From positions 23,934,001-23,998,000 of the forward strand of contig OX485804.1 of assembly GCA_950295325.1 (NCBI GenBank): a stretch of DNA of 64,000 nucleotides, in the 5' to 3' direction. Positions 4,082 through 49,902 of this stretch are shown piece by piece. The notes below the pieces were generated by a model. It did no database searches, had not been told where the DNA came from, and was given only the letters and a program-made list of their open reading frames with translations. The stretch is from Polytrichum commune (taxonomy: Eukaryota > Streptophyta > Polytrichopsida > Polytrichales > Polytrichaceae). The position numbers and the translations under genes were made by a program. The first letter of the stretch is position 1. Each line of letters begins with the position of its first letter.

Positions 4082-4306
4082 ATGTGCTCATGGAATCAAC
4101 ACGCGAGGTGTCATGTACTAGCGAGGAATCAACGGCTAGGACTAGATTCACACGAGGTGTCATGTACTAGCGAGGAATCAACGGCTAGGACTAGATTCAC
4201 ACGAGGGAAATCATTGAAGGCATGCGTAGCTAAGGCGGCCGGGTGGACATTGGAGAAGGCTAAGGATGTGATCTTACCCGAAATTAAGGAATATAAGATG
4301 ACATAG
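4082..4306 (+). CDS. Conserved small ORF of TGTGAG family, copy A
   Basis: The ORF has 74 codons. Its C-terminal half contains SLKACVAKAAGWTLEKAK and ends in a Lys/Glu-rich tail (LPEIKEYKMT) that resembles the tail of copy D (APEHKEVKIT). I recognise no named domain. Over the 14 codons of ACVAKAAGWTLEKA this copy and copy C differ at ten codons, all synonymous, which points to selection on the protein. A 49-bp tandem duplication (first unit from about 4104, second from about 4153) lies in the 5' half. Since 49 is not a multiple of three, the N-terminal frame here probably differs from the ancestral one, and the start at 4082 is uncertain. Cell location and partners are unknown. Confidence 0.55.
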   Translation: MCSWNQHARCHVLARNQRLGLDSHEVSCTSEESTARTRFTRGKSLKACVAKAAGWTLEKAKDVILPEIKEYKMT

Positions 4307-4448
4307 TGTGGGATTAGTCAAGTTGTGTATATTCCAAGGGTATATTGGAATTATACATTAAATTACCGAAGGAGAATTTTCTACGTGTCATTATAGTTTT
4401 TCCACTCGGGCTAGGACGAAATCGAAGGGTGAGGAACTTTTGGTGACA

Positions 4449-6546
4449 TAAATGAACAATTTAATTGTTCAATAAGTTTTGGTGTTCTTAATATTTGAAA
4501 ATAATTGTTGAGATTATCATGATTTAAAATAAGTATCATAAGATTATCATAGCTTATGTAGGGGAAAAAAAATCAAAGATAAATTAGCACACACTTCAAT
4601 GTGGAGAGGGGGCCCAAATTTTTATCATCTAGTGGTTTTCGCCGACTTTGCTATTAACGGAAGTATGCCGTAAGCCTATTTTGTGTAGTCAATCCAGAGA
4701 CAATAAGGCATCTTGAAGGGCAAATCTGAAACAAACATGAAGTCACTTTACCTTATCAAGTCCAAGTTTACATTCAGCTACATAACCATAGGAGATTGTA
4801 AGCTTATTGTATGCCAAACTTGGCTCACACTTTGATTGCCTTTGTTGACTCATGCTGAATTATAACATCAATATCACTCTCATATCCACAAGGCCTTGAA
4901 CAGTTCCACAACCTAAGCCACCATTATAACCAAAAATGATCATAGCGGTGTGAAGTGACAAACCTTTATGTGATGGAGAAGCAATAATAGGGATAAGCAC
5001 GACCAAAAATAAAGCCTTGTTGGGGCTTGAAGGGGACCTCCTACATTATGAATCTTATAATAAGTTACATAAGCTTAACATTTTTCACCTATGATTGATC
5101 GAGTTGCACTAGAAGAAAACTTGTCCATGGCAAGAAAATGCATAAATAAATCAGAACAAGTGTGGACGCGAAGGTTTTTAATTACAGTTTTGGGATAGAC
5201 AATCAAAATGTCGCAATGGCCAAGTCCAATGAATGGTTGTAATGAACAAGTTTTGTTTTTTTTGTTTTTTTTGTTTTTTTCCCCCAAGTGTTGGTCAATG
5301 TGCAATAATATACAACATTTCTATCATCCCTTTCTCCCACTTCTATCCGGACGAGGAATGACGATGGCTAACAACCACATAACATCATTTGAACTCATAA
5401 CAATGTTCTGCAAAACTGATAGTATTCCATGGAATATTGTCAGTCCCACAGAACACTGTTATGGATCTGAATAATGTTATGCATGTTCTCGTCAAAAAAG
5501 GACAAAACGTTCTCTTTCTTTCTTCTACACAATTTCTACCAAACTCACCAAGTTTTAGAATCATGTTTTTTTTTCTATTTATGAAAACTTTGAAATTTTC
5601 TTCACTACATCATGTTATGTCAAGAAGATAATATAAACATAAATACATGTGGCATTAGTAGTCGCAATACTAAGCATGTATTTGCATCTATGAACACCCA
5701 AGTTGTGTACCATAAAGGTCACTCTAATCCATCTTTACTAGGGCTGGAATGTACATAATTTTCACTTTGGATTTGAATGGGTATTGTCGAATGGAGGAAT
5801 GCCATGTGGTGCAATTTGAGGTAGAACCAATTATGTTATGTTAGAATTGAGAGCCCTCTGTTATATTTGAACCCTAAGTTCTCATTTGAGGTGTTCATTC
5901 AATTTGACATTTTTTGGATTTCATGCACTTTGTTTAAGACTAAATCCTACACCCATCTTCTTTCCTACCCATACATTTTGTAGTTGAGACCTACAATCTC
6001 TAATGGTGGATTTAGTAGCTTCGCTTTGTGGATCTACATGAAATTGAACTTGTCAAAATTCAAGAGATTCTCTTAGTCTAGCCTTTTCAGCCCTGTCTAT
6101 GGCAACTCTAGAAATACTAAACTATTTATAATAGTTAATGATTTTCTACGTTTTGTAAAGAGATTCATTTGAAGACGAGATGCCTCCCATAATGCCTTAA
6201 TAAAATCTTTTGGCTTCTTGCAAAAAATCTAGCGTTAACCTTCCGGAAGGGGCCACCCAAGGGGCTAATTCTACAATTAATAAGAAGAGAAACTGGGCAT
6301 TGGTCAAAAAATGATGATTCTCCCAAGTATCTTATACTACATAATATGGGAAGATGGGTTTTGAACCAAATTAGAAAACAAATAGAATCTATCCAATTAA
6401 AGTAAAACCCCAATACTATCATTTCGTAGGTTGTCCCATGAGTCATTAGGAGGGAATTGAACCCAAGAAGGGGCTGCTTTGTAATGCAAAAATTTGGGTG
6501 GGAGAGCCTCCTCAACTTACTAACTAGGGCAAGAATTGAATGGTGG
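4449..6546. other. Anonymous AT-rich DNA
   Basis: No supported gene. A T-rich microrepeat (runs of seven to eight T separated by G) lies near 5258-5280. Short ORFs at 5075-5631 lack motifs. Near 6430-6480 is a fragment ('ggttgtcccatgag', 'aggagggaattgaaccc') related to pieces at about 11030-11080 and 21540-21600, so it is probably an old dispersed repeat. Confidence 0.4.
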
Positions 6547-7312
6547 TGTGAGCCCAAAATTGATGCCCACATTGGTTGTTAACACTTGTAAAACATTACA
6601 AGTGGTGTTTTGGTGATTTATGATTATTCACAAAAATATAAAAAGAGTGAAGCTTGAAGAAAGCTTAGTTTGAATCATTCTTATTGGATGTGGACTTTGC
6701 ACATCCGCATAAGTATAAGGCTAATCAATGTAAATTCAAGTATTCAAACAAAGCCATAAATTGAACTTTAAATCATTCACGCCCAACTATTACTAACAAG
6801 AGGTCAAACCCTCTTCAAGGCCAACTAGCCTTGGCTCCTAACCTTACACCCATGCACACACACGTGCTCCTATCTTGCTTCCTACGCACCCACACTTATA
6901 ACACGTGGAGTGTCAAGGAGCACGAAGAAAAGAGAGGATGAGTGAGGGAAGAATGAGGGATTATATAGTGAGTTTGAGGGGGTGAGCACCCTCAAGGCTC
7001 ACGATAAGCCCTCGAGATTTCCTCCTACTTTGTAGACTCTTATCCTATCTCCTAAGCCTTCCTCCCTCAAATGATCAACAAGGATCCTAATTCAAACATT
7101 TAACTAACTTTGGCTTTCTACCTACCACACTTTACCAAGGTTTGTCTTTCTCCTACTTAAATCCACTCCACAAAAGCCTAATGATTCAAACTAAGCTTTC
7201 TTCAAGCTTCACTCTTTTTATATTTTTGTGAATAATCATAAATCACCAAAACACCACTTGTAATGTTTTACAAATGTTAACAACCAATGTGGGCATCAAT
7301 TTTGGGCTCACA
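6547..7312. mobile_element. Fold-back derivative of the TGTGAG family
   Basis: Both ends carry TGTGAGCCCAAAATTGATG in inverted orientation, and about 130 bp of the left end reappears inverted at the right end. The right-hand 600 bp or so is the first part of a family copy on the minus strand; it matches 50860-51060 closely and also the 3530-3655 stretch of copy A. The tandem array, small ORF and opposite family end are missing. Flanks are GGTGG on the left and GATGG on the right, a possible 5-bp target duplication with one change. A minus-strand ORF of 135 codons at 6165-6572 runs across the left end and has no support. Confidence 0.65.
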
Positions 7313-9070: not shown

Positions 9071-9295
9071 ACTGAGACCCTAATCGGAAACAACAACAAT
9101 TGAAAAAAACCCACAATAAACGCAACTCACGCGGCTGTTCGAAAACAAAAGAGTGAGAGTCGCGAGAGAGTTGGGGGAGCCGCAAAATGATAACAAAGAT
9201 TAGGGCGCGAAACAACAGGTGTACAATTGTAATTGCATTGCCGCTTTGCGTGAGCGTGAATTCAGCATTTACCTTCGAAGCAAACGATTTTGGAT

Positions 9296-9319
9296 CCACC
9301 CCCTGATGGTCGCCAATTA
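9296..9319 (-). other. Primer-binding-site-like sequence beside TGTGAG copy B
   Basis: Reading the minus strand leftward from the LTR end (CTCACA), the next bases are TAATTGGCGACC and then AGGGGGTGGAT. The gypsy element at 56838 has TAATTGGTGCG followed by GGGAGGGTGGAT at the equivalent place. TGG just after an LTR end is the usual opening of a plant primer-binding site. Confidence 0.4.
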
Positions 9320-10027
9320 TGTGAGCCCAAAATGGTGCCCACATGTGGTGATTAACTCTTCGAAACCAATTTTAGTTTGACTTTGAGGTATCATGATTAT
9401 TCACAAAACATAAAAAGAGTGAAGTGTGGTGTGGATTCAACTTTAGGCATTAGGTGGTGTTGTGTGATTATTCCAAGGTTTGATTTCAATAGGAGAATGC
9501 CTTGGTATGTGAGTAAGGGGTTAGGTGAGGCAAGGTGAGCTCCGCGGGATAAATGCCCACTTTTGGATCCACCTTGTTAGTTTAGGAAGAAGGAAGCTTG
9601 GTGGAAGGGGATTAGTCCCTCCTTAAGAGGTGAAGATTAAGGGATTGTGATTGGAGGTGTTAATCCTCTCACCCTATCCTCACCTCTCTCTCCCTCTCTC
9701 CCTCTCTCCTTCTTTACTACTTAAGGTGGTTTCTCTCTCATTTTCCTCTCTCTCCATCAAGCGCTCTCAAGAGAGCAAGCTCTTAAGAGCTCGAACCACG
9801 TAGGTGGGTTATTAGTTGTAGTGAAGGTAGTTAGTTAAGCTCTCTCTCTCAATCTCTCTCACGTGGAGGGACCCCTTAGAATTACTAGATAGACACGTGT
9901 GATTGGGGGTTAACTTGAGGAAATTAGTAGGATAGATTAAGTATTAGTTAATAGATTAGGGGAATGTTAGATTAACTACTAGGAGTTTAGAATGGTTGTA
10001 GGATTGCTTAAATTTATGTTCAACCAT

Positions 10028-10505
10028 AGCTGGGCCGAACTGAATTAGGCTACTAAGCAGCTGGGCCGAACTGAAGGAGGGCTACTAAGCAACTGGACGA
10101 ACTGAACTAGGCTACTGGAGCAGCCGAGGCAACTGGGTTAGTGCTACTAAGCAGCTGGGCCGAACTGAAGGAGGACTACTAAGCAGCTGGACGAACTGAA
10201 CTAGGCTACTGGAGCAGCCGAGGCAATTGGGTTAGTGCTACTAAGCAGCTGGGCCGAACTGAACTAGGCTACTGGAGCAGCCGAGGCAACTGGGTTAGTG
10301 CTACTAAGCAGCTGGGCCGAACTGAAGGAGGGCTACTAAGCAGCTGGACGAACTGAACTAGGCTACTGGAGCAGCCGAGGCAATTGGGTTAGTGCTACTA
10401 AGCAGCTGGACGAACTGAAGGAGGGCTACTGGAGCAGCCGAGACAATTGAAGGAGGGCTACTAAGCAGCTGGGACGAACCGAATTAGGCTACTGGGGCAG
10501 CTTAA
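10028..10505. repeat. Tandem array within TGTGAG copy B
   Basis: About a dozen alternating units are built on 'gctactaagcagctgggc', 'cgaactgaaggaggg' and 'ctactggagcagccgaggca'. They sit between the conserved 5' block and the small ORF. Copy C has an array of different sequence in the same place. Confidence 0.85.
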
Positions 10506-10685
10506 GGGCTTAAAACTAAGCATAGGTTAAATCATGCATTTTAGAATTATTCTAGCACGTAGGTAAGTGTTAGGTTTATTAGCGTGAGGCGTGGCTTGCT
10601 AGTGAATGTGATTTGGGTGGATCATCAAGGACAATGTTTTTAAACACTTACATCTTATTGGTCAAAATAAGTTACTTGTTCAAGA

Positions 10686-10850
10686 ATGGGGAAGGTGGTT
10701 GATCCTAGCAATGGCAAGGCAAAGGAAGTAAAGATTAATGGTGTTAGGGGGATGTCTTTACGAGGATGCGTGGCCAAAGCCGAGGGATGGACTTTGGAGA
10801 AGGCTAAGGCCTCATTTGTTCAGGAAACATGTATTAATAAAACATCATGA
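10686..10850 (+). CDS. Conserved small ORF of TGTGAG family, copy B
   Basis: A 54-residue ORF opens with MGKVVDPSNGKAKEV and contains RGMSLRGCVAKAEGWTLEKA, followed by a short divergent tail. The lead-in NGKAKEVKINGVRG is similar to NGQVTKRIIKGQRG in copy C. No known domain was recognised, and there is no signal peptide or membrane segment. Most third-codon bases differ from the other copies while the core residues stay, apart from Ala to Gly and Ala to Glu changes. The ORF is read from the strand on which the element starts TGTGAGCCC. If the primer-binding-like sequence at 9296-9319 marks the retroelement sense, this ORF would be antisense to the genomic RNA. Confidence 0.6.
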   Translation: MGKVVDPSNGKAKEVKINGVRGMSLRGCVAKAEGWTLEKAKASFVQETCINKTS

Positions 10851-10928
10851 ACTTTAGAACTAGAAGTTCACTGAGATATAGGATACGTATTATATCATTG
10901 AGATTTGATACTACACATGTGATTCACA

Positions 10929-10968
10929 AACCCATCATCCGGACTAGGACGCTTAAGGGTGGTGGGTT
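10929..10968 (+). other. Terminal hairpin, copy B
   Basis: AACCCATCATCC (10929-10940) pairs with GGGTGGTGGGTT (10957-10968) as 12 pairs, two of them G-U, around the loop GGACTAGGACGCTTAA. It lies 10 bases from the element end. The loop is unchanged in copy C, while the stem changes in a compensating way. Confidence 0.65.
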
Positions 10969-13929
10969 TGGCCTCACAACACACTGCCATAATTAGTTAT
11001 AATAATAGTAAAAAAACTCACGGCCTATGGGAGGGTTCAATTCCCTCCTAATGAGATAGGCATGGGTTGTCCCATGGAGGATGGATAAATCAAATCATCA
11101 TTCATGTTGTCATCAAACTTTCAAAAATCGCATTTTTCCAATGTTGCCCCAATGTGAAAGGTTTGACGTTGACGTGAGTTTGACCAGTCTCAAATAGGGT
11201 TCACCAAGAAAGTGATTAAAACATGTGAAAACATTAGACATGGCCTGCTTGGGCAATGAAGGATTAAGCTACATTGTTTCATTCTTACCCATGTTTTTCC
11301 ATCATGATGTGGTAAGTTAGAAGGCTTTGTGTGTTCATCATGAAGTGAGTGCACCAATTTTGGGGCCTTGAGGGTAGTCCTATTAATGAGATTGACGATA
11401 CAAGACTAGGGGTAGGGGAGAGGGGGAATTGCCAGGTGCATCCACACAAGATTGGAGCCACTCATCTATGATCAAGGTTCCCTAGCCCAAAATAGAGTCC
11501 AATGGATTAGATTCAAAGGCCTGCATTGAAGGTGATGTCGCCAAATCATTATTATTCAATTGCAAGTTGTGAACATCTCATGTGATTCTTGGGGTGAGAG
11601 TTTGGAACATGTCAGATTCATCACCCTTAAGTCATACCATTACTCAATTCCTTGGATGCGTCATGTGGGATTGAGCGAGAATAATTCTCATGTAATTCCA
11701 AGATTCCCCATTTATCGGGAACACTCTTTTTGTGTATTGTGGAGTTTTTGACAAGCAACTATGAATTCAAAGTTTCTCAATTGCATCCCCTTTCTTTGGA
11801 ATGAGACCATCATCTAGGTGCTTAGTTATGTGATGGTACTCGTACAAGCACTTTTTGAAAAGTCATGAGGTCGACCCATTCAATTGCAAATTGCAATGCA
11901 ACAAGTCCAGAAGCCATGAAATGACCCCTTAGTTGAATGGGCCTCCTATGGGCACTTAAAGGTTAACATGTCCACTGTTGAAGATAGTGCCAAAGGTGAA
12001 GGTGATGGGGTACCAAAAGTAGGCTTGACAAAAACATTGTTTCATTGGTGGACCCTATGATAGAAATGATGAAACGTGTCTTAGATGTGGGAGTGTACCT
12101 CTTATGTTAACACGTTTTTGTTGCATGTACAATATGTTCATCATTAAAAACAACACATCTTTATTGGTGTTTCCACCACATTGCTTCTCAAAGTATGTAT
12201 AAATGACATTTTCACCACATGATAATGATTTCTTTCCCTAAGTAATTTCTTTTGCAATAGACATGTATTGACAATTAAAGTGTACTTTCATGTTTATTGT
12301 TATTTTTAGATAATAACTTTTGTCCATATTACATGAGCCCCTAAGTGCCCACCCGATGGAGGTCTTGAGATGACTTTGATTGCCCCTCTGTGACACTTTG
12401 GGAGTTATTTCTCCACATATGATAAGTAAATGACAACTCCAATCTTATAGATGGTTAGATCTAGTAGGTGAATATACCTCAAACAATTATAGCCATCTAA
12501 ATGTTTCCATTTGGGATAGAATAGCAAACATTTGAAGGAGTGTACTTGAATATGAAATGTTTAGATGGGCTTAATTTCAAACCAAACAAGCAATACAACA
12601 CTAGGAACTCTTATAGAAGATTTTAAAATCTGAAACAATTTGATGACCAAAATGGTCACATTTGAGTTTTTGACAAGCCTTCCTATGGGAACTAGACATT
12701 GCTGGATAAAGTTCCAATCTTTTGATAGAGGTACTTAAGGACTTCAAAATTTAAATCCCAACCGTAGATGTGACAAGAAGAATATTAAAAAAATACATAA
12801 AATATTTAGTGCATACGATTAAAAATTCAAAGGGAGATATGGCCCAAAACAATTAACATTCTAAATCCCTAAGTCTACCGGTTTGGGGAGCACTTACACT
12901 AGAAATCCCAACTGGTGAGAGTTTGACCCAATTTGTTAAAATTGCTAGGTCTCATATCTACTTCAGCTTGCAAAGAGAGTTCACATGTGGTTTTCAAATC
13001 TTATAACACCTACATACCAAAATACGAAAAATGTAGACCAAATTCAATCAACAAAACCGTAACACATTGCATGCATTTTGACACATCTAGTGGGCTTCGT
13101 GGGCACTTAGGGTTAACTCTAGTTCTTAGATTCATTACCAAATTCAAATTCCTACTAGTTCTTATTAAGGCATTCTATGCTGCATTTGTCGATTTTGGTT
13201 TGTTTCCTTCTTAGCCCTTGTTGGTGGATTGCATTATAAATTCAAACTTTCTTGTGTATTGTATGTTTGGAGTCATGTTGGGGATGTTGTACAAATATGA
13301 TAGCTATGAAAAAAATAACATTATAAGTAATTGAAGAGGTGACAAATAATATTGTCTTGCATTGAAAAGATGGTGGAGATTTATTGTCGTGGTTGATGAG
13401 TTCGTGTTCTAATTATGTTGTGTTAATGTGTTAGCCTTAGTTGTTTTTGTCATTTGGTTTGTGTTTGCTGACATCATCAGGAGCACAGATGATGATGTGT
13501 AGAAAAAAAAAAGGCTAATTATAAGAAATTGGTGAAAATCCTAATTATGGTGTGACGGATCATCCTAATTTCCAACGATTAAGCTACAATTAAAGCCTTT
13601 GTTGTTTTCAACTAAGGTCACCATTTCTGTGCCCAATTTTTATCTGTGAGGCATTTATTTAGGTTCCATGACTACTCCTTAATTTTAGGTTGGATCTAGT
13701 ACATGTCGATGTCTCAAGGTTACGATAACATCTGGCTTTCTCATGCCTATAGTGATTCCCACATTGTTGTATTTACTGAGGACTAATGCACTATTTTGAC
13801 AAAATGTCTTTGGATAGCTTCTGTGCATGGTTTGGATTTCTCATTCTGAGCTATCTAAAGTAGATGTGGCTAATTTCAACACAACAATATTCTGGAGATC
13901 TATGTTTGAGTAGTATGTGATTAGGTTTG

Positions 13930-23244: not shown

Positions 23245-23543
23245 TATTGAAGGATTCAATAGGAGTAGAGAAAATATTGCACAAACATTCACACATACAC
23301 AAAGACATGAACAATGCTTGGAGTGAAATGGTTTTCCTCACCCCCGGCCTCGCCGTTTATTCATAAGTTTAGGTTACATTGTGCCGGCCAACACTAGCTT
23401 GGTGGCCAACCCTAGCTTCGGCGGCCAACCCTAAACCGAGCGTTGACTTCTCGGTTTTTGTTGACTCTTTATTTACCAATGCAACCTTTGACCAAGAGCA
23501 ACATTAAGGCTTTCTTTCTCCATTCAAAGCCTTTCTTTCTACA
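23245..23543 (-). repeat. Copia 3' LTR
   Basis: 299 bp, highly similar to 28094-28376. On the minus strand it starts TGTAGAAAG and ends CCTTCAATA. It includes the additional 'gccaaccctagctt' repeat unit. Confidence 0.9.
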
Positions 23544-24574
23544 CTCCCACTTTGCGAATTGTCAAAGACTTCTAAACCCATTGCCCTACTTAATGAATGA
23601 TGTCTATCCTTTGCTAATGTTTTTGTTAGTACATCCGCTATCATATGCTCCGTAGGACAATAATTCAAATATATCTCTTCCGTCTCTAATTTCTCCCTAA
23701 TGAAATGGTGTTGGATGTCGATGTGTTTGGTGCGGGAGTGATGCATGGGATTCTTAGCAAGTTGTATGCAACCTTGGTTATCACACATGATGGATGTGGC
23801 TCCTTCTTGCACATATCCCACGTCCGCCAATAGTTGTCGTAGCCAAATCGCCTCTTTTGTACATTGGCTAGTAGCCATGTATTCCGCCTCCGTTGTGGAC
23901 AATGCAATGGTGGGTTGTTTCTTGCATTTCCACGAAATGGCTCCACGGCCCACAAGAAATACGTATCCTGTTGTAGACCGTCGGTCATTGGTGTCGCCCA
24001 CCCAATCCGCATCGCAAAATCCTACCAAAGATATGTCGTTACCTCTAAGCAAAAGTTTGAGTTCCAAACCCCCCTTCAAATACCTCAAGATACGTTTAAC
24101 GGCCATCCAATGCGACGGACCAGACTTGGTCATGAATTGACTCACCGTACTTACCGCAAATGCGAGGTCCGGCCGTGTGCCCACCATGGCATACATGAGA
24201 GATCCCACCGCCGCTTTGTACGGCACCCCTTTCATCTCCATTTGTACATTGCCAAATTCCTCATCCGAAAGTTTCAACAACTTAGAATTTGCATCCGATG
24301 GGGTTGCCACCGGTTTGCAATCTTCCATGTTGAAACGCCTCAACACCTCCTTGATGTAGCTTGTTTGGCTCATGGTGATGGTGTGGGTCTTCCTATTCCA
24401 TTGAAATTGCACACCTAAACAATAATTCAACTCCCCGAGGTTACTCATTTCAAACTCCTTTTCAAGTTGCGATTTAAGCCACTTCAATTTGGTCACATTG
24501 CTCGACAATATGATCAAGTCGTCTACGTAGAGAATGGTCACCAAGATGTAATCGCCCGTTTGTTTGATATACAA
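23504..24574 (-). pseudogene. Copia RT (C-terminal half) and RNase H
   Basis: The frame covers the RT active-site region (LYVDDLIIL), the connection, and RNase H with GFCDADWVGD, STTGYVF and ALSTTEAEYMA. It ends in the 3' LTR. It continues the polyprotein from the preceding segment; the 24575-24634 interval is open after a nonsense codon (TAA) that follows the RAWY motif. RT copies element RNA and RNase H degrades the template, both in cytoplasmic particles. Confidence 0.88.
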
Positions 24575-24631
24575 TGAGTGGTCCGCATGGCTCCTACAAA
24601 AGCCTTCATTAATGAAAAATGAATCGATTCG

Positions 24632-25963
24632 TTAGTACCATGCCCTCGGCGATTGCTTAAGCCCGTATAACGTTTTGATGAATTTACACACGAGATGTTC
24701 TTTGCCTTTTTGCACAAACCCCTCGGGTTGGTCCATATAAATGACCACTTCCAACACGCCATTCAAAAACGCGGTTTTCACGTCCATTTGGTGAATCTCC
24801 CAATTCATGGCCGCCGCTATGGCTAGGATACACCGAATCGTGATGAACTTGGCCACAGGTGCAAAGGTCTCGTCGAAGTCCACTCCTACCACTTGAGAAT
24901 AACCCTTTGCCACCAACCGTGCTTTGTACGTTATGATGTTGCCCGATGCATCGTGTTTGGTGCGAAACACCCATTTGCACCCAACACTCCTACGACCCTC
25001 GGGAAGGGTGTTCAACTCCCACGTTCCGTTGGCCACGAGCGAGTCGTACTCCTCTTGCATTGCAGTCTCCCACTTGCTCGCATCCTCGTATCGCATGGCC
25101 TCACACAAATTCAACGGGTTGTCCACAAGTGCCACATTGGCACGTTCTCGTTCGTGTTGGGGAAGAATGTGATTTTTCCACCATTCTCCGCGTGGCCGCC
25201 GTTCCCTCAAAGGATACCTTCCATCCTTACCAAAACTCTCTCCATTGCCATCATTCAATGTGCGCATTGCATCACGAACATTCGTTCCATTGCCATCACT
25301 CATTGCATGCGGTTGCGGAGCCTCACCAACTCTCTCATCCGTGCCATCACTAAATGTTGGTCCTCCATTTTGAGCCACATTATCTCCCACTCTCTCCTTA
25401 CACTCATCATTATGCTCACGTTTTGGAGATTCGTCCACAATGACTACATTTGGTCCTTCATTTCTCCCACTTGGACGTATCTCTGAATCACCCCCCATGC
25501 TTGTAGAATCCTCTAAAAATTCCACGTCCCTACATTTTATGATTTTCTTTGTTTGCAAACACATAAGCATATAGGCCTTAGTACCTTCACAATATCCTAG
25601 AAACAAACATTTGGTGCCTTTGGCGTCGAGCTTACCCCTCTTCTCGTCCGGCACCATTGCATACGCCAAGCATCTAAACACTCGCATATGCACAACGCTA
25701 GATTTCCTCCCGCTCCACGCTTCCTCGGGAGTCATGCGTTCCAATGTCCTTGTTGGACACCGGTTTCTCATATAAACCGCGTTCACCACCGCTTCCGTCC
25801 AAAATGATTTGTCGAGCTTTTGAGCATGGATCATGCTCCTCGCCATCTCTACAATGGTACAATTCGCACGTTCCGCCACTCCGGTTTGTTGAGGCCAATA
25901 CGGTGTAGATGTTTCTTTGGCGATGCCGTAGTCCACCAAAAACTTCATGAATGCCTTGGACAT
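24632..25963 (-). pseudogene. Copia integrase (core end) and RT (N-terminal half)
   Basis: It begins just after a stop that lies directly behind the SDNGG part of the integrase active-site region. It continues through the integrase core (STPYWPQQTGVAERAN, VYMRNRCPTRTL), a variable acidic linker, and the RT fingers and palm (GCKWVFRTKHDASG, KARLVAKGYSQ, QMDVKTAFLNG, LYGLKQSPRAWY). It ends at a nonsense codon at about 24632. Both boundaries look like point mutations in an otherwise continuous reading frame. Confidence 0.9.
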
Positions 25964-25966
25964 GAA

Positions 25967-27546: not shown

Positions 27547-27693
27547 CTCTCAAATGCCTTCACTAGGATCCCTCTCTACTCAAGGATGGTATAAGAAGCC
27601 TAGAATCACTCAATAAATCCTCTTTCCACTCAAAGCTCTTAAGTTGGATCTTCTAAAAGTCTCACAATGTTAAACTCACCTCAACAAGTGAGT

Positions 27694-29424: not shown

Positions 29425-31289
29425 ACCTAACTGAACCTTCTGCAACCACCTAACTGAACCATTCAACTTGACTCCAAATTTCCTAATTGGGCTTTGATGT
29501 CTTGCTTTGTTAATTAGACTAAGACGTTTGATGACTTGCAGGAGGTAAATTCAGGGGTTGGTGGAGGTAAAAAAGCCTCTAATATGGTTTGTTTGTGGAT
29601 GTATGCAGTGGAAGGGGTGTTCACATGTGGATGTAATGGATCCGAATTTTGGTTTAGTTGCTCAAGGTCGAATTGCAGGTTGTCCATGTGACAACTACAA
29701 TGGAGATGAAATTCTAGAGGGATGTTTTAGTGTTCTTGTACACAAAGTGTGGGTACAAGATGTGAAGTTGCAATATCCAAACCTTGCGGGGAATCCTCCG
29801 CAAGTACGCATGAAGGACTCTGAATTTGCACCAATTTTGTGGAGAAAAGATGATGTAATTCTTGTTGGTGGACTAACCAACATTTTGTGAGACTAGGGAA
29901 CTCATTGTAGACTGTCATGACTTCATATATAGTAAAGGTCCACATACGGCATTTTGTCTACATAGCCTCATGTTGCAAGTTTTATTGACTCTAATGGAGA
30001 CCAATCATAGTTTCATGAATGTGTTTGATTGGTTTAAAAGACACAACATGCCATTTTCTTCTAGTCAATTTGCAAAAGAACCTAGTGCAATATGCTCCTA
30101 CTTGACTGCAAGATGCTTTGATGTTGATGTTCTTTGCACTCCAAGTAGACAAACGACTAGTCAATTATGCCCAACATCATTTACAATTAATATATTGTAT
30201 TATAATGCACTACATATTGTCTATTCATATGCCCATAACATGTCTTAATCGACTACAAGCAACCTATTCGTACACAAACGATAGTCAATTAACCATATAA
30301 GTCATGTTCTTTTTTACTAATGAACCCTACCATAATATAATCAATTACTATACACCAATTAATCAACAATGCCACAAAAAACTATGTTTTATTGACTAGG
30401 AGTAGTCTATTATGTCTCAGAATGTTTGTCAAGATGAATCATTAGGGTAGTTTATTTGACCATCCATAGTCTACTTATGTGTGTTTTATTGACTATCCAT
30501 ATGTGAGCCCAAAATGGTGCCCACATGTGGTGATTAACCCTTCGAAACCAATTTTAGTTTGACTTTGATGTGTTATGATTATTCACAAAACATAAAAAGA
30601 GTGAAGTGTGGTGTGGATTTAAGTTTAGGCATTAGGTGGTGTTGTGTGATTATTTCAAGGTTTGATTTCAATAAGAGAATGCCTTGATATTGTGAGTAGG
30701 GGGTAAGGTGAGGCAAGGTGAGCTCCGCGGGTTAAATGCCCACTTTTGGATCCACCTTGTTGGTTTAGGAAGGAGGAAGCTTTGTGGATGGGGATTAGTC
30801 CCTACTTTGGAGGAGAGGGTTAAAGGATTGTAATTGGAGGTGCTAATCCTCTCACCCTATCCTCACCTCTCTCTCCCTCTCTCCCTCTCTCCCTCTCTTT
30901 GCTACTTAAGGTGTTTTTCTCTCATTTACCTCTCTCTCTCTCAAGTGCTCTCAAGAGAGCGAGCTCTTAAGAGCTTGAGCCACGTGTGTGGGTTGATTAG
31001 TTTTTAGTGAAGTTAATAAGTTAGTCTCTCTCTCAACACCTCTCAAGGGGAGTGAGTTCTTAGAGTTCATCATTACATGTGGGGATTAGGTAGAGTTAGT
31101 GAAATTAGAGTGTTAAGGATTAGTTTTAACTACTAAGTAATAGGCTTCATTATTAGGATTAGCGGGTGTAGTTAGTTAATTAGAGGTCTAGATAGGGTGG
31201 ACCAAAACCCACGAAGAAGGAATTAAGCTAAAAGCTTGATTAGCGACTGGGGAAGACTATTTAGGTGGCAGCTTAATAACTGGGAGCTT

Positions 31290-31500
31290 AGCCAGAAGAC
31301 TGCTGCAGCCGAGAGGGCTGAGTTAAGGACTGGGCCGAGAGGGCTGAGCTAAGGACCGAGCTGGACTAAGCCGCTGGTTAGCCAGCAGACTGCTGCAGCC
31401 GAGAGGGCTGAGCTAAGGACTAAGCCGCTGGTTAGCCAGCAGACTGCTGCAGCCGAGAGGGCTGAGTTAAGGACTGGGCCGAGAGGGCTGAGCTAAAGAC
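31290..31500. repeat. Tandem array within TGTGAG copy C
   Basis: Units 'cagccgagagggctgag', 'ttaaggactgggc' and 'gccgctggttagccagcaga' repeat over about 210 bp. Position matches the copy B array; the unit sequence is largely different, though both contain 'gcagccgag'. Confidence 0.8.
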
Positions 31501-31712
31501 CAAGGTTGGGGTGGATGCGACGAATACATTTGGGATCTGGTTAGTTAGCTAAGGCTTAGCCTAAATTGAATGGTGAAACCAACCTAATCATAGGCCCTGT
31601 TATGCCATTTTAGACTAGATTAGTTAGTATGCAAGTGTGGACTTATTAGGCTAGTTAGAATCAAGTGTGGCCTTAAGGGCAATTGTGTTGGAGTGTGTTA
31701 AACCATTGAGGA

Positions 31713-31730
31713 AAGTGTTTTTCAACACTT
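31713..31730 (+). other. Hairpin upstream of small ORF, copy C
   Basis: AAGTGTTTTTCAACACTT, identical to 4051-4068 in copy A, ends 36 bases before the ATG at 31767. Conservation between the two most separated copies suggests function. Confidence 0.6.
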
Positions 31731-31766
31731 GAACCTCGTGGCCAAAATAAATCACTAGCATTATTA

Positions 31767-31991
31767 ATGGAGAAAGTGGAGGACATCCACATTGGCGAGA
31801 CAAAGGAGGTTAGGCCGATGGAGAAAGCGGAAGACTCTAGCAATGGTCAAGTAACGAAGAGAATAATCAAAGGCCAAAGGGGAATATCCTTGAGAGCTTG
31901 TGTTGCCAAGGCCGCCGGTTGGACCCTTGAAAAGGCCAACGCGGCCCAAAGCCAAGAGGCTACCACTAATAAACAAAGTGATTCAAAATGA
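31767..31991 (+). CDS. Conserved small ORF of TGTGAG family, copy C
   Basis: 74 codons from the first ATG (MEKVEDIHIGETKEV) to a TGA. The N-terminal half is charged. The core RGISLRACVAKAAGWTLEKA is followed by a Gln/Lys-rich tail. The product would be small, basic and soluble, with no recognised domain. Against copy A the core differs at ten of 14 codons, all synonymous, the signature of purifying selection on a protein. A related N-terminus (MENVEHSRDGKTKEA) exists as a separate short frame in copy D on the minus strand near 50015. Function unknown. Confidence 0.65.
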   Translation: MEKVEDIHIGETKEVRPMEKAEDSSNGQVTKRIIKGQRGISLRACVAKAAGWTLEKANAAQSQEATTNKQSDSK

Positions 31992-32055
31992 CATGAACGC
32001 CTTGGGATGCAAAGAGATCATTCTTTTGATACAAACAGTACATGTGATTCTCAAT

Positions 32056-32091
32056 ACCATCACCCGGACTAGGACGCTTAAGGGTGGTGGT
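32056..32091 (+). other. Terminal hairpin, copy C
   Basis: ACCATCACCC (32056-32065) pairs with GGGTGGTGGT (32082-32091) around GGACTAGGACGCTTAA. Compared with copy B, a C-G pair has become A-U and a U-G has become C-G, with pairing kept and the loop unchanged. Confidence 0.65.
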
Positions 32092-32413
32092 TTTGGCCTC
32101 ACACCATAGTATAATGTCTCTATGTGTTTTGACTACCTGTAGTCTAATGTGCTTTGATACTTGTGACTAGATGTAGTCTAATGTATCAATGTTTTATTGA
32201 CTGACTATAGTCTAATGTAAAGATCAAAAGCATAGTCTAATGTACATACCCGGCCCATAGTCTAATGTACACCATGTTTTTTAGACTGTGTAACATTTGA
32301 CTATGCCTTATTAGACTAACCTGAAACGACTAGGAAGTCAAAAAGTATTTGAGTGTTTTATAAACTCAAAGAAGTCATATGTCCAGTCATATAAACCGTG
32401 ATCTGTTGTAGTG

Positions 32414-34253
32414 ACCCCAAGCCAATTTGGTTGGTAAAAGTATTGGCTTCACCCAATTTTGTCTGAACTAGCCCCAACTTTCGTCAAATTGAAGTGGAAT
32501 ATTGCCGTCCTAGCACCAAAGACCAGAACGTTCTCCGCACCTATTTAGGTTGGGACACCAAAAAGAATTTCAAGTGGACAGTGGACTCAGCGTATGAACA
32601 AGTTTGGATAAACACGGATACCGTACTTTGTACTTAGAAGTTGCGTAAGGGTTTTAAATCGGAAGCAATGACCATCCCCCAAAAACATATAGATTTTGCC
32701 AAAGACAACTTAGCACGTATTGCAGTTGCGGAAAATGACGCCGAGAATGGATTTGAAGCAAACTATGGAGACGGAGAAATATAACATAAGTTGGAATTAA
32801 TGGCTAAACATAGGGGCACTTTATAGACTTGGTATCATTGCAATTATTATATTTAAAATTATAATATTCAAATGTATACATACGATTGGGATGTGCCATC
32901 CAATTCCATAAGACCCTTATATGGGATGCACACCCTAAACTTTATAATGACATAAAACTATTTGATTTTGGGATTCGATTGTTTTTTCCACGTGTAGTTC
33001 ATGTTTATATTATGATATGAAGACTTATTATTTTTGGTAATGTGAATATTCTTCGCGTGAGAATTGTAAACCGTCATGTTCCCAATGTTCCATATGCTCA
33101 CAATATTGGCATCCCAAACTATGGGCGTATTTTATTTTGAGACTTTCCAAAGTCTCCGATTAATGAATATAGTGTTTTGATTTCAATTTGAAGTTTGAAG
33201 TTGAGATAGCTAGTGACGTTTCTTTTAAAGAAACAACTAGGATTTAAGTATTGTATTAGGTTTAGAGCATGATGAATTCCAACCACCGATATGATGTACA
33301 CTAGATCACAAAACTACACAAATATGGTGCTTGGCAAACATGGAATATAAACATATAAAGTTGTGCTTGTGTTATTGCTTTTGTTGTTGTTGTTTGATGT
33401 TTGTGTCCCCACAAGTGCACATCCCTTATTATTTTTGAACAAGTAGTTTGTCCAAATATGTTTAGATGTCAATTAAACCTTTGATGACATGGTGAACATT
33501 GCCTAATCTAGTATGTATTCCATTATTTATTCATTTTTGGTTTCTAATGCAGAGTTCATATGCCTTTCCCTAAACACTTGAAGTGGTCAGATGACAGAGT
33601 TCGATTATCTGATTAATATTTATTACTTTGTGTTAACCAAGTGATTAGAATTAAATTAAATTACAATGAATAAAGAGCACAGGGCTTTTAACAATGTCAA
33701 ATCGTGGATTTCAGAAAACTTTGCCACATGTCCTTGTCGCATAGGCTGGAACCCTTCAAACTCTCCTGTGGAGTTAAAATTTTGCACTCAAAGTGCTCAA
33801 CCACGTAGGCCTATCCTACTATAGAGGCCTATCCTAGTGATTGCAATTTTCAATAAGATATGTTGGATGTGAGTGATGTTTGCGGGTGGCACGTGGAATT
33901 CTTCTTTGAGCCAACTAGCCGCATTTAAATGGGAAAAGAGTGTAACATGTTTAGTTGACTACATGAAGAGGTTTATCCAACCATATCGTTATTTTCAAAA
34001 ACACATGGTTCCATGCCATGTTGGTACAGTTTGTGTAAGTTCACTAACATATATGTATCCACATGTCCGGTAATTATGAAATGGACACTTATATGTGTGG
34101 ACATGATGAGAGTATTCTTGGGAGTTTGTATCATGATGGGATTGAAGAAACTATCCTCATACCGTTTGCATTGGTTCAAAAAATTTACTATGGAGAATAC
34201 TGAAAATTACTAGGGCAATGACAAGAAAATGATACGAAGCAATAGTTAGGTGC
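32414..34253. other. Anonymous AT-rich DNA
   Basis: No supported gene. Frames are short and broken. The last few hundred bases may hold the unreadable N-terminal part of the piggyBac-like gene that follows. Confidence 0.35.
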
Positions 34254-35544
34254 TTGCATTTGGTTGATAATGACTTGGTTATGAGTGACAATACCCAACC
34301 TCAGTATAGTCCGATAGCCAAGATAGAATGGTTAGTGAACGAGCATAACTCTTTATACACAAAATATTGGCATCCAGAGCAAAACCTAACCGTCGATAAG
34401 ATGATGGTTAGGTACATGGGGAAGAGGTCTCTGATAAGATAGTACTTGAAAAATAAACGTTGCCGGTATGGGCTAAAGTGTATGGGCTAAAGTCCATGGG
34501 GAGGTCACTTCATTGTCAAGTTGACACCATGTGCGGACAAAGTTTGCTACCCCTATATTACATGCCATATATAATTTTAAAATTTATGATATTTTTTCTA
34601 CATATACATAACCATTGATAGTATCTTTTGTATACTTTTTTGAAATTTTTAGTCTTTTTTTTTAAAGTAATTGTTTTAGTTCAATTCTGTGTCATTCTAG
34701 TTAGAAATGGTATGTTTTATGAAAAAAACAAATCATCAAATTTAGTTACCACTTTTGACTATGTCATAGGTACTGTGTATATCTACTCATGAAAAAAAAA
34801 TTGATAAAATTTTGACCCATTTTGGTGGTGCAACTTACCAAAAGAAGATTTTTTTTGGTCACACGTGGTGTTCAACTTGACAATGGAGTGATCTACCCAT
34901 GCTAAAGTCTGTACAAAAGTTAGAGCTTTATCGTGGAAAAGAAGAGTCATTAAGTGCAAAGGACTAAGCACTAGTTGGCTACAAAGTTCTAATGATTCTT
35001 CTAGAAGGCTTGGAAGATAAAGGCCATATTGTAACATGTGACAACTTTTTAACATCATGATTTGATCTAGAAAGGGGTAGGTGCAACAAGTACTTAGATC
35101 AATAGAAAGGGATGGCCACAAGCATTTACTTTGGCTAAAGAGTGTCCGAAGAGGGGAGACTTATTATGGAGAATGCATGGATCTAATTTACTAGAAGCAA
35201 TAACTTGGTATGAAAATAAGCCAATTAGTTTGTTGAGCATGACGTTCTCACCTATTGACATGAATGATGTTGTGTTTGTGAAAATGTGGCATAAGACTCC
35301 GGAGAAATCCATTCCTTCTTTCCCAGTTCTAGTTCATTACCAAGCTCACATGAGAAGTGTGGATGTGGTGGATCAACTTCGAGGCTACCACACGGTTCAA
35401 AACAAAGACCACAAGTGGTGGCATCGTTTATTTTTGCACACTCTTGACATGTCATTGGTAAACTCATGGGTCTTGTATAGAATTAATATGCAAGAGAAGG
35501 GTGAAATAAAAAATTATCCCATAGGGAATTCAATTATGCAATAG
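34254..35544 (+). pseudogene. piggyBac-like transposase, decayed
   Basis: Segments in several frames fit a DDE_Tnp_1_7 (piggyBac) transposase. 34254-34442 encodes KYWHPEQNLTVDKMMVRYMG, and frame-broken pieces near 34980-35060 read like 'GHIVTCDNF'. 35131-35544 encodes a clear C-terminal part: CPKRGDLLWRMHGSN, ISLLSM, HMRSVDVVDQLRGYHTVQN and KWWHRLFLHTLDMSLVNSWV. The VD..DQ..GY and KWW..LF motifs are typical of the family. Stops and frameshifts between segments make it non-functional. No TTAA-flanked ends were identified. Confidence 0.7.
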
Positions 35545-40920: not shown

Positions 40921-41279
40921 TGGTTAGACATTGGAAGAGTGTTTGTCTGACATCCCTCTCATTACTTGTACTCGCAAATCAGACCAGGTCGACAAGATTC
41001 CTAGCATATATTTTAAGCCCCTCTCCAAGCCAAGAAATCTGTGACACAAGAGCCAAATGACCTTTTTGAAGGCCCCTCTTTCACGCCTTCATCATTGTGG
41101 AGCGTGGAGCTAATGATTCTGCCAGGAACTGGGCAGCCATGTGCCCAAACAAAAAGCAAATAGAAATAGAAACATAAGAGATTTTTACCATGACATCGCA
41201 ATGTTTGTTGACCGCCTCCCTCTCATGTCTGTGTTAGCATGAGAGTGGGGGCGGCTTGGTGGTTATTTTCAAGGGTGGA
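40921..41279. other. Unassigned spacer
   Basis: A 62-codon minus ORF (41013-41201) has no recognisable motif. The last five bases (GTGGA) are the target duplication of the solo LTR. Confidence 0.35.
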
Positions 41280-44119
41280 TGTGAACCCTTTGAGTGGTCC
41301 ACCACTCTGCGGGATCACTTTTAGTTAGAATGTTAGCATTAAAAGTTAGAATTGATAGGGAATTTAGGAAAAATTAGTTCATTTAGCATTTAGCCTAGAA
41401 GAAGGAAGGTCAAAATGAAACTAAGTAGTGCTAGAAGATAGCAAAGTAGAAAAAATGTGCTAGCTAGTAAAAACAACTAGCTAAGCAAATATTAGTAGAT
41501 GCTAGTTATTAAGCAAATGTTAGTAGATGCTAGCTAAGCAAGTGTTAGTTTATTAGTTAGTGTGAGGCACACAAGACTATTGGAGGTGTTTTACGTAAGA
41601 AGATAAAATCGGCGTGAAGAATTTTGAAGACAAAAAAGAAAGAGAGCAAGGGGGATACTTGCCCACTTGCCCCCTTGCCAACTCGATGGCGGAAAAATTA
41701 GAAAGATTTCTAAAGGTTTTTTGTCGGAGCCACCTCGGCGAGAGGGTGGCAACCTCAACCGGGAAAACCCCCGAGCCAAAATTTCGGGAAAGGGTTTGAA
41801 AAATGGATCCGGTGGAGGAGGGGTCCAACCCTTTTGTGAGAGGGTTTAAAAAACCCCTCCTTCCACCTTGTAGCTCTCTCTCTTTCTCTAGTTTTTGGGC
41901 GAAGCCCTGCTTCAATGTAGTTAGGAAAAAATCCTTTAGCATGTATTCTCAATGGTCTAAAAGAAAGGCTTGAGAACCTCCTCTACTCTCTCTCTCCTAG
42001 TTAGGTTGTGTGTTTATTAACACACCAACAAAATTATTCCTTCTTTTGTAGAGGTAGGTTGGATGGTAGAGTTTTGAGTAGAGGCATTATAGACCTCATC
42101 TGCCAATGCCCTGAAGGCTTAGTTCAAAAGCTAGAACAAGATACTTATCATTTTTCTCTTAGAGAGATTTCATATAGCTATCCATAGCCGTTTCCCATTT
42201 GTGATTTGGTTGAGATGACAATTAGTTATGGATTTTCAAAGATGGAGTAGAAAAACTGGGTGGTCTTGTGGGTAGCGGCTGCTGGATCAGACCTGCGAGC
42301 CCAATAGGAATTTTAATTCCAAGAAATTATATTTTTCCCAAGTAGAACTTTTGTGTAGCTTTCCAAAATGGCTTAGAACATTTGATTTGAGCATGATTTG
42401 AATTAGATATGAATTGTGCAAGATGGGACACATAGTTTGAGAACTTTTGGTTGACTGCTGCATTACAGAGGACCTGCTGGGTTCACTTCGGCTTACCTTT
42501 CTAATCACATATTTTTATCAAATACATCTTTTTAATATCTCTCCAGGGTCATATAGAACGTTTGATTTGACTAAGATTTGAATTAGATATGAATTGTTGA
42601 AGGCGAGATACATAGTTTAAGCCTTCTTGATTGACTGCTGTGTTACAAGGAGTCCGCTGAATTTCTATTAGCTTAACCTGCTGATGTCATAATTTTTCTA
42701 GTTAGAGCTTGTTCATAGCTTTCCAATGGTATAAGGAAAGCCTAGATCCAAGTAGTAAGGAATGTGCTATGAATTTTTGAAGTTAGAAGGTAGATAGGTG
42801 GGTTGGAAGGGTCGGTTGAATCGACCTCACACTTCCAACCCTCATAACTTTTGCATTTCTTATCCGATTAGAGTGATTTTTAGATCATTGGAAAGATAAT
42901 TTGGTGCACTAAGTATAAATATTATGCTTAGGATTAAATTACAGGGCAGAATAACACTTTATATTTTAATTGTTAACTAAGGTACGCTTACTACCAAACT
43001 AGTTACAAAGAAGGAGGCAAGGTCGACGCTCGGAAAGTGGAGCAAGGAAGGAGGTAGCGGCTCGGCCTACATCAAGCCCAAATCAACCGAGGAAAATTGA
43101 GGTAAATTAACTAACCTTAAGCCTTCCATTTAGGATTGGAGGGAGCACGGCTAAGGTACGCATCTCTAAACCCACTCACCTATCTCGTAAGGTCAAGTGG
43201 CTTGACCACTTGACCGCCAAGGGAGTACCCAATTCCATTGTTTTCGGGGCCCTTGGTATGTTTTGTGGTAGTAGCTTCATTTATTAGCAAGTTTCGTGTG
43301 TGGTAAGTCGGATTAATCACCGACACGACCACTCTGAATGTTGTTGGTGGAAAGGTGGGGTTAATGACCCGCGAATCCACTATTATGTTGTTGGCCCCAT
43401 AGATTGGGAGTAATGGCCCCAATTTATGAAGATTGCGCAACAGGTTGAACCTACAGGTCGCCCGTCACCCTGGTCCCATTTAGTTGCATTTCGTGGTCTA
43501 TCCAGTGTAAACACATTTAACAATCAAAACATACAAAATAAATCGTAAACCCTTGTTGGCAAGAGACCCGAGGTAAGGGGTGATGCCTAATATGTTAATG
43601 TAGTAAGTTAGGACGTGCAAACAAAAGTAAGTAATTAAGAAGGAATTTGTGTGAAGGGTGGGACTTAGGCCAAGTTCCCCCGCTTAGAAAACTAAATAGA
43701 ACTAAATAAAGAAATAGGAAGAATTGAATGGTCCATCAAATTGTCGTTATTCCGTTCGTTGAGTTAGGGTGGTATGAGTCACACCCGGTTGGGTATATCA
43801 GAACCATCCCAATTCACAAATTAGGATTGCCTTGGTTTCAAGGCTGGTGCGTCTGCGCGTAGAATAGGTTGTAGGTTAAGGTTAGAACTAGATATGAAAT
43901 TGGTTAGTGGAGTTTAAAGCCACACTAGTAAAAAACTAAGGCCTAACCTCCGGAGGTACTACGACGCATATTTAATCTCCCTTAAAAATCTAACTACTCA
44001 CGTTATACACCTATCATCCGGGTTCGGCTTGGGCGCCTGCAAATGCAGGCCACCTTCACCGAAGGGCTTGTGTGATACTTTTAGGCTCCCTCGAAAGGGG
44101 GTGGCCCAAAAGTACCACA
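41280..44119 (+). mobile_element. Solo LTR1 (gypsy), 2840 bp
   Basis: It starts TGTGAACCCTTTGAG and ends AAAAGTACCACA, with perfect GTGGA duplications on both sides (41275-41279 and 44120-44124). It has exactly the same length as the minus-strand LTR at 56839-59678 and is nearly identical to it. No internal domain remains, so it is a product of LTR-LTR recombination. All ORFs inside (such as 41577-41942 and 43180-43440) recur in the other copies as LTR sequence, not genes. Confidence 0.93.
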
Positions 44120-44124
44120 GTGGA

Positions 44125-47609: not shown

Positions 47610-47703
47610 CACCCAAGGGAGAATTTTATTACTCATCTTCAAAAACTCCTAAGTCCTACCTGCCTACCTCCATTCTGCCTAACTAATCTAGCTACTCCCC
47701 TAA

Positions 47704-48440: not shown

Positions 48441-49495
48441 GTACCTTAGTTAACAATTAAAATATAAAGTGTTATTCTGCCCTGTAATTTAATCCTAAGC
48501 ATAATATTTATACTTAGTGCACCAAATTATCTTTCCAATGATCTAAAAATCACTCTAATCGGATAAGAAATGCAAAAGTTATGAGGGTTGGAAGTGTGAG
48601 GTCGATTCAACCGACCCTTCCAACCCACCTATCTACCTTCTAACTTCAAAAATTCATAGCACATTCCTTACTACTTGGATCTAGGCTTTCCTTATACCAT
48701 TGGAAAGCTATGAACAAGCTCTAACTAGAAAAATTATGACATCAGCAGGTTAAGCTAATAGAAATTCAGCGGACTCCTTGTAACACAGCAGTCAATCAAG
48801 AAGGCTTAAACTATGTATCTCGCCTTCAACAATTCATATCTAATTCAAATCTTAGTCAAATCAAACGTTCTATATGACCCTGGAGAGATATTAAAAAGAT
48901 GTATTTGATAAAAATATGTGATTAGAAAGGTAAGCCGAAGTGAACCCAGCAGGTCCTCTGTAATGCAGCAGTCAACCAAAAGTTCTCAAACTATGTGTCC
49001 CATCTTGCACAATTCATATCTAATTCAAATCATGCTCAAATCAAATGTTCTAAGCCATTTTGGAAAGCTACACAAAAGTTCTACTTGGGAAAAATATAAT
49101 TTCTTGGAATTAAAATTCCTATTGGGCTCGCAGGTCTGATCCAGCAGCCGCTACCCACAAGACCACCCAGTTTTTCTACTCCATCTTTGAAAATCCATAA
49201 CTAATTGTCATCTCAACCAAATCACAAATGGGAAACGGCTATGGATAGCTATATGAAATCTCTCTAAGAGAAAAATGATAAGTATCTTGTTCTAGCTTTT
49301 GAACTAAGCCTTCAGGGCATTGGCAGATGAGGTCTATAATGCCTCTACTCAAAACTCTACCATCCAACCTACCTCTACAAAAGAAGGAATAATTTTGTTG
49401 GTGTGTTAATAAACACACAACCTAACTAGGAGAGAGAGAGTAGAGGAGGTTCTCAAGCCTTTCTTTTAGACCATTGAGAATACATGTGTGAGGCC

Positions 49496-49538
49496 AAACC
49501 CCCCACCCTTAAGCGTCCGTAGTCCGAGTAGTGGGTTT
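49496..49538 (-). other. Terminal hairpin, copy D
   Basis: On minus, AAACCCACTACTC and GGGTGGGGGGTTT can pair with one mismatch around GGACTACGGACGCTTAA, a one-base-longer variant of the loop in copies B and C. The full inverted pattern reaches TGTGAGCCC on one side and GGCCTCACA on the other. Confidence 0.5.
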
Positions 49539-49689
49539 GGGCTCACATTCCTCCGCGGTATTGGATTTGGACTTGGATGAGTCCATAGTGCAAGGTTCAC
49601 CCTTCAAGTGGTCTTGGATTTAACTGGATTTTCACTTTTAACAACTCAATGTACGATTTCAATACGTATGTGGAGAATGCACAAGTTAA

Positions 49690-49902
49690 CTATGTTATTT
49701 TAACCTCCTTATGCTCGGGTGCTATTTTGTCTTTGTTTGCTTCTAACGTCCATCCGGCCGCTTTAGCTACACAAGCCCTTAAGGATATCCCTCTCCTAAA
49801 TGGAGTCCGTGCCGTTGACTCTATACTACCACTTGAACTATCACTTGTGTATTCCGTATCGCTACTATAAGAGGTCTCACTTGGTGTCTCCATACCGTAC
49901 AT
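49690..49902 (-). CDS. Conserved small ORF of TGTGAG family, copy D
   Basis: 70 codons: a Ser/Thr/acidic N-terminus (TSYSSDTEYTSDSSSGS), then ESTARTPFRRGISLRACVAK, AAGWTLE and a tail ending APEHKEVKIT. The ESTART block and the tail match copy A (ESTARTRFTRG, LPEIKEYKMT), so A and D belong to one subtype and B and C to another. Core codons differ mainly at third positions from A and C. A second short frame upstream (from about 50013, MENVEHSRDGKTKEA) resembles the copy C N-terminus. The product has no recognised domain; function unknown. Confidence 0.65.
   Translation of the reverse strand: MYGMETPSETSYSSDTEYTSDSSSGSIESTARTPFRRGISLRACVAKAAGWTLEANKDKIAPEHKEVKIT

Follow-up and report, generated by a model that had tools for sequence, protein, structure and literature searches.

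The DNA analysed here, referred to as the window, is a 64,000-nucleotide stretch of the Polytrichum commune genome (contig OX485804.1; C2:23934001-23998000 in a 408-Mb assembly of 64 contigs). Self-comparison of the window identifies four related units, A, B, C and D. These units are long terminal repeats (LTRs) of a Ty3/gypsy retrotransposon family. Each carries a short open reading frame (ORF), open at the position given in an initial annotation of this DNA and encoding 74 (A), 54 (B), 74 (C) or 70 (D) amino acids. The ORF is probably an element-encoded gene for a small accessory protein, placed inside the LTR of an autonomous family; judged from sequence, this reading has a probability of about 0.8.

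The initial annotation had called the units LTR-like. Paired copies, a site resembling a primer-binding site (PBS), gag-pol and 5-bp target duplications identify them as true LTRs. Among the best 150 of 1764 candidates of the D-type subfamily, 34 same-strand pairs lie 8.8-10.3 kb apart and involve 68 copies. Both LTR/internal junctions can be read in the D-type element L046: the LTR end CCTCACA is followed by TTATTGGTGCGTCCGCCGGGA, a 2086-codon frame and the 3' LTR. This single frame matches the Pfam families Retrotrans_gag, Asp_protease_2, RVT_1, RT_RNaseH, Integrase_H2C2 and rve, in that order. No chromodomain, the mark of a chromovirus, was found in a Pfam scan of this one element. The candidate PBS, TGGTGCGTCCGCCGGGA or a variant of it, begins 3-4 nt past the LTR in L046, L033, L020 and L021. 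Fifteen loci were fetched by LTR-end DNA plus TGGTA, and none of these matches has a PBS of the type TGGTATCAGAG in the sequence ends listed. The C-type LTRs of L020 and L021 run directly into the variant PBS-like stretch, and L020 continues into gag (81% identical to that of L046 over 238 amino acids), so that C-type elements were once full-length too. The majority of the C-type copies fetched are solo LTRs. The top 150 C-type matches include a single same-strand pair at a distance of 5-20 kb (9.5 kb). This presumed LTR pair, at C2:54.68-54.70 Mb, proved not to be an element: a complete LTR that has a target duplication of its own stands there beside a piece of a rearranged cluster.

The general architecture of the repeats is that of LTRs, with TG...CA ends and a short target duplication. 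All four units in the window start with TGTGAGCCCAAAA; B, C and D end with GGCCTCACA and A with GGTGACA. In a table of LTR copies, perfect 5-bp duplications occupy 19 rows (16 distinct copies) and duplications with one mismatch 6 rows (4 distinct copies). Seven further paired rows, including copy B and two 5' LTRs with internal sequence, have 2-4 mismatches, and 25 rows have no partner end within reach. An alignment of 24 copies, mostly C-type, shows a variable middle between conserved stretches of ~540 nt at the start and ~300 nt at the end. Copies A, B and C have a TATA-like or CTACTTAAG box at LTR positions 386-401, and D has one at 701. Signals resembling those for polyadenylation occur close to the beginning of the ORF in A (ATTAAA) and C (AATAAA), ~130 nt before the ORF in D and inside the ORF in B.

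Evidence that the ORF encodes a protein comes from its short core. A pattern reverse-translated from the core peptide CVAKAAGWTLE matches the genome exactly at 982 places, far above chance, against 0 in a reversed control. Of 32 distinct DNA spellings picked among ~100 matches listed, 31 encode CVAKAAGWTLE and one encodes CVAKAAGWTFE, the latter being retrieved because YTN in the pattern also permits Phe. All variation among these spellings is at third positions, apart from one Leu first position. Read directly, copies A and C differ at 10 of 14 codons over ACVAKAAGWTLEKA, and all ten differences are synonymous, as had been noted. Across 15 representatives, the differences per site within a 17-codon core are.12,.10 and.50 at codon positions 1, 2 and 3. 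Seventeen non-redundant cores of 21 codons give proportions of synonymous (pS) and nonsynonymous (pN) differences of 0.719 and 0.117. The corrected ratio (dN/dS) is ~0.05, a rough value with pS near saturation and biased toward conservation because the cores were picked by protein similarity and without stops. In the two shifted frames of the same cores, pN/pS rises to 2.2 and 1.9. Purifying selection on the core across subfamilies is thus shown by the sequences, in agreement with the initial annotation, which had proposed selection on a protein and named a dN/dS well below 1 over many copies as part of the support expected.

The time at which selection acted can be approached through shared and private variants. 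A search with C-type core DNA, allowing <=3 mismatches, found 107 places; 97 of the 100 listed were analysed. Variants present in at least three copies comprise 7 synonymous and 3 nonsynonymous changes. Those present in one or two copies comprise 4 synonymous and 16 nonsynonymous changes, among them C to W, C to Y and W to R. Against the 44 synonymous and 136 nonsynonymous changes possible, the private variants fit an absence of selection (p 0.80) and the shared variants do not (p 0.003); the two classes differ (Fisher p 0.015) in a test based on small numbers and on copies that are not independent. A reading consistent with these data is that the protein mattered while the elements spread, and that single inserted C-type copies decay freely. 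The D-type subfamily presents another picture: all 150 scored copies encode an identical protein, which points to a recent burst. Among the matches listed, these copies sit on four contigs.

The LTR-end-fetched loci form a less biased set, in which L031 is the same copy as L008 and L015. The core is open in 11 of the 15, broken in one (L041) and absent from three. These three (L033, L035 and L043) are all D-type LTRs with the same precise 333-nt deletion (D-LTR positions 1630-1962), which removes the whole ORF, so that the ORF is missing from some LTRs of the family. The junction lies at 1389-1390 in L033, which continues into the PBS-like site and gag and is 99.6% identical to L046 over 1648 nt. 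The exact junction occurs in 281 genome copies, with 0 in the control. The 100 junctions listed include 18 same-strand pairs 7.7-9.2 kb apart, 16 of them at 8.97-9.21 kb. This spacing is ~0.33 kb, or about one deletion, below that of the ORF-bearing pairs, and the ORF-less elements therefore integrated as full-length units. The ORF-less form appears to be derived, since past the junction D keeps codons (KGAR) that match the pre-core stretch of the B- and C-type ORFs. Near C1:22.14 and C1:56.69 Mb, a junction is found 0.3-0.5 kb upstream of an ORF-bearing copy.

The protein itself is small and variable outside the core. Nine residues are invariant in 14 diverse members (R38, S41, L42, C45, A47, W52, T53, L54 and K69 in the numbering of C). 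The N-termini (MEK.., MEST.. and the D-type MYGMETPSE..) are combined with differing tails. Two subtypes had been proposed initially; the N-terminal types do differ, and two are too few, as several genomic copies pair a MEST... N-terminus with an INK...S tail. The N-terminus assigned to copy A proved to be a frame artefact: related copies start with ATGGAATCAAC, and in A the duplication at 4100-4197 shifts this start into a frame other than that of the core. The core bears some likeness to a helix-turn-helix (HTH) motif (LacI-like VAKAAG, Psq-like SLRxAA), which no search supports: Pfam, queried with 14 members, returned no HTH family at E up to 10, and no PDB sequence matched. The SLBB family (PF10531) reached 16 bits against a cut-off of 27, with matches in 3 of the 14 members and a best E of 0.011. 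In IMG/VR, tblastn confirmed 0 of 43 pattern matches.

Two RNA structures accompany the ORF. A hairpin of the type AAGTGTTTTTCAACACTT lies upstream of it in many copies, with compensatory pairs in one L036 copy (T-A to C-G) and in L047 (G-C to A-T). It is better than shuffled sequences in A (z -5.68) and not in C (z -0.58), and may serve as a signal in the leader RNA. A second hairpin, with its loop around GGACTAGGACGCTTAAG, is formed by the terminal 62-65 nt of the LTR and is perhaps a U5-type structure beside the primer-binding site. The mechanism proposed for the ORF follows from its setting, past the presumed promoter of the LTR and short of the LTR end, in the sense of gag-pol. In a full-length element, the ORF would occupy the 5' leader of the genomic RNA, ~1.1 kb before gag; from position and orientation, RNA begun in the 5' LTR would carry it ahead of gag, and the protein would be translated from RNA started at the LTR promoter. 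In a solo LTR, the ORF is retained.

The alternatives to an element-encoded protein gene vary in what they explain. Imperfect 13-bp inverted ends, lone C-type copies with 5-bp duplications and a fold-back derivative with two left ends (6547-7312) first suggested non-autonomous DNA transposons with 13-bp terminal inverted repeats. This idea was dropped and is refuted by the D-type pairs, the PBS-like site, gag-pol and the internal-LTR junctions; LTR ends with 10-bp inverted repeats are, moreover, described for rice Retrosat2 in the available part of PMC3485330. The stretch might instead be conserved as RNA or DNA, for packaging, for integrase or as a regulatory site, with an incidental open frame. 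The nearby hairpins and the LTR ends are indeed conserved as nucleic acid. Third positions that differ at.50 per site, against ~.11 at first and second positions, a pN/pS that inverts in the other frames, the variation of the 32 spellings almost wholly at third positions and the deletion of the stretch from a multiplying line leave this explanation scarcely credible. Slightly better placed, and still very improbable, is takeover by the host, in which solo LTRs would persist as small, scattered genes of benefit to the plant. Many copies are open, including C-type solo LTRs with promoter-like boxes. The private C-type changes nevertheless look neutral (16 nonsynonymous to 4 synonymous, with 136:44 possible; p 0.80) and give no indication of a host-useful gene across the C subfamily, in which a few copies could still have been domesticated.

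For an element-encoded protein, the question becomes how it acts. Because the ORF-less line multiplied as full-length units, action in trans is considered: the protein may serve the whole family as a small regulatory or nucleic-acid-binding factor, a tentative proposal with slightly less than an even chance, and ORF-less copies could spread on protein made by others. A more doubtful extension regards the LTR gene as a shared good, with each insertion or solo LTR a portable promoter-plus-protein unit and the ORF-less D-type elements as cheaters that would multiply on protein from full-length and solo copies. If this were true, ORF-bearing and ORF-less lines in one genome would constitute a natural experiment on retrotransposon cooperation and control. 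The protein could also limit its own element through copy-number control, and the ORF-less derivative would then have escaped this limit or its cost. The 281 exact copies of the junction, many as LTR pairs, would suit such self-restraint, as would the retention of the gene in solo LTRs, which would tie its dose to the number of copies. Purifying selection across such diverged subfamilies is less easily reconciled with a gene that only restrains its carrier, and this role seems unlikely. Stalling peptides usually act near the stop codon. An upstream ORF with a conserved nascent peptide that regulates gag-pol translation in cis would account for the sense leader position, for 54-74 codons with a short fixed core and for the conserved hairpin upstream. 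It accords poorly with the variable residues between the fixed core and the stop, and with elements lacking the whole ORF that multiplied as LTR pairs. The discovery of the ORF-less line roughly halved its estimated probability, and cis regulation is now regarded as clearly improbable.

Several observations weigh against an accessory protein gene and temper confidence in it. Codons outside the core are weakly conserved in the 15 representatives, with differences per site of.38/.46/.58 upstream and.37/.41/.46 downstream. Upstream ATGs between the TATA-like box and the ORF are lowered in B (6 versus 14.7 expected) and C (5 versus 13.0), and not in A (14 versus 10.5) or D (19 versus 14.9). Pfam, NCBIfam, PHROGs and the PDB sequences hold no convincing relative of the protein, and the initial statement that it has no named domain stands. 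The profile search and structure prediction recommended with that statement were both run, the first without a convincing match and the second with a poor result: the AlphaFold model, built from four sequences, has a mean confidence score (pLDDT) of 55.9 and places helices at residues 42-49 and 54-62 of C, a two-helix arrangement of low confidence. Within the first 39 Mb of C1, 31 ORF-bearing D-type spellings stand against 20 ORF-less junctions among the matches listed. Since the ORF-less D-type derivative has multiplied, with many copies in LTR pairs, multiplication does not require the ORF in cis, at least as long as it is carried by other copies. In view of this derivative, the protein may even be dispensable now.

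The coordinates of the window copies and their parts are given in table 1. The initial annotation described a protein inside all four full copies. C and D are solo LTRs, each between 5-bp target duplications. Copy A is old, diverged and rearranged, and copy B, a remnant whose flanking 5-mers differ at 3 of 5 places, is apparently the 3' LTR of a truncated element. D inserted into the LTR of another Ty3-type element, and the corresponding site is empty in a paralogous LTR at 41279-44119.

Table 1. Positions in the window of the four LTR copies and of the features associated with them.
Feature	Position	Strand	Remarks
LTR copy A	2996-4448	+	starts TGTGAGCCCAAAA, ends GGTGACA; flanks tgcat/taaat agree at 3/5
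Upstream hairpin of A	4051-4068	+	fold of 4046-4073, z -5.68
ORF of A, 74 aa	4082-4306	+	only the part past the duplication is homologous to the family protein
49-nt tandem duplication in A	4100-4197	+	shifts the frame upstream of the core
LTR-end hairpin of A, weak	4384-4448	+	z -1.67
Internal-region remnant beside B	9269-9319	+	79% match running from the internal 3' end into the LTR
LTR copy B	9320-10978	+	preceded by 51 nt matching the L046 internal 3' end; no clear target duplication
Upstream hairpin of B	10633-10650	+	stem imperfect
ORF of B, 54 aa	10686-10850	+	open
LTR-end hairpin of B	10917-10978	+	z -4.99
Left target-site duplication of C	30497-30501	.	CCATA, read in the sequence
LTR copy C, solo LTR	30502-32103	+	TGTGAGCCCAAAA...TTTTGGCCTCACA; perfect 5-bp duplication CCATA on both sides
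Upstream RNA hairpin of C	31713-31730	+	AAGTGTTTTTCAACACTT; compensatory changes elsewhere; z -0.58 in C alone
ORF of C, 74 aa	31767-31991	+	identical 74 aa encoded by one other genomic copy
LTR-end hairpin of C	32042-32103	+	last 62 nt; z -3.57
Right target-site duplication of C	32104-32108	.	CCATA, read in the sequence
LTR copy D, solo LTR	49487-51587	-	subfamily with full-length members; 5-bp duplication ACATG/ACATT and empty site
LTR-end hairpin of D	49487-49548	-	z -4.25
ORF of D, 70 aa	49690-49902	-	identical 70 aa in 150/150 scored matches (best 150 of 1764 candidates)

The window contains several other mobile sequences. The element that received D spans 48441-59682, with 2.8-kb LTRs at 56839-59682 and 48441-52259, the latter split by D. 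It has a 1346-codon frame with gag and protease and no reverse transcriptase match, and its gag region shares 39% identity with the one in L046. The fold-back derivative at 6547-7312 measures 766 bp, and both of its ends are LTR left ends (TGTGAGCCCAAAATTGATGCCC). Its inner arms are 99% identical over 133 nt, it is flanked by the near-duplications GGTGG/GATGG, and integrase may have acted on both left-type ends. A fragment of a piggyBac-like transposase, which would be unusual for a seed plant and hints at a bryophyte, lies at 35098-35544 (DDE_Tnp_1_7, E 2.7e-11). Pieces of a Copia-type polyprotein occupy several frames of the minus strand at 23504-27549, with RVT_2 in the one piece scanned, and an array of diverged, mutually similar repeats fills 59800-64000. 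Rfam and ARAGORN scans of the window returned nothing, and a plasmid collection gave no match to positions 30001-33500.

LTRs are usually treated as non-coding regulatory repeats, and proteins are rare there. Retention of this protein across very diverged LTR subfamilies implies that lineages with it did better over the long run, and the common derivative without it shows that single copies can do without. Together, the two observations allow the idea of a shared retrotransposon factor to be tested in a plant-like genome. Because solo LTRs keep the gene, their number can be measured as a variable in element control. Self-encoded copy-number control in Ty1 and accessory proteins of the Tat/Rev type are known cases in which a small protein, acting in trans, alters what becomes of its own family. 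They serve as a working analogy only, and no relationship in sequence, position or function is implied. A parallel in position is mouse mammary tumor virus, whose superantigen gene lies inside the LTR and is kept in both LTR copies; this is an animal retrovirus, and no sequence relation to the protein described here is expected. Among plant elements, the ORF0 of Retrosat2, RIRE3 and RIRE8 is likewise in sense orientation, upstream of gag-pol and associated with long LTRs that have inverted ends, and it evolves faster than the gag-pol ORF, according to the available text of PMC3485330. The present ORF differs in lying within the LTR, and the two are compared by position. Additional ORFs (aORFs) of plant LTR retrotransposons, such as Grande gene23 and those of RIRE2 and Retand or of the env-like kind, also encode an extra element protein of no assigned function, present in many copies and conserved at the protein level. 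Both properties are found here, together with a common ORF-less derivative. In the available part of PMC7264820 aORFs are assigned to the internal region and mostly follow pol, ahead of the 3' LTR, and further additional ORFs are mentioned without LTR placement in the portion of PMC9289625 available. Among the matches listed from the open-access literature searched, there is no plant retrotransposon protein inside an LTR. The ORF described here lies wholly within the LTR (in L046 it stops at base 30, ahead of the LTR end at base 233), and is an ORF of the additional kind in another location.

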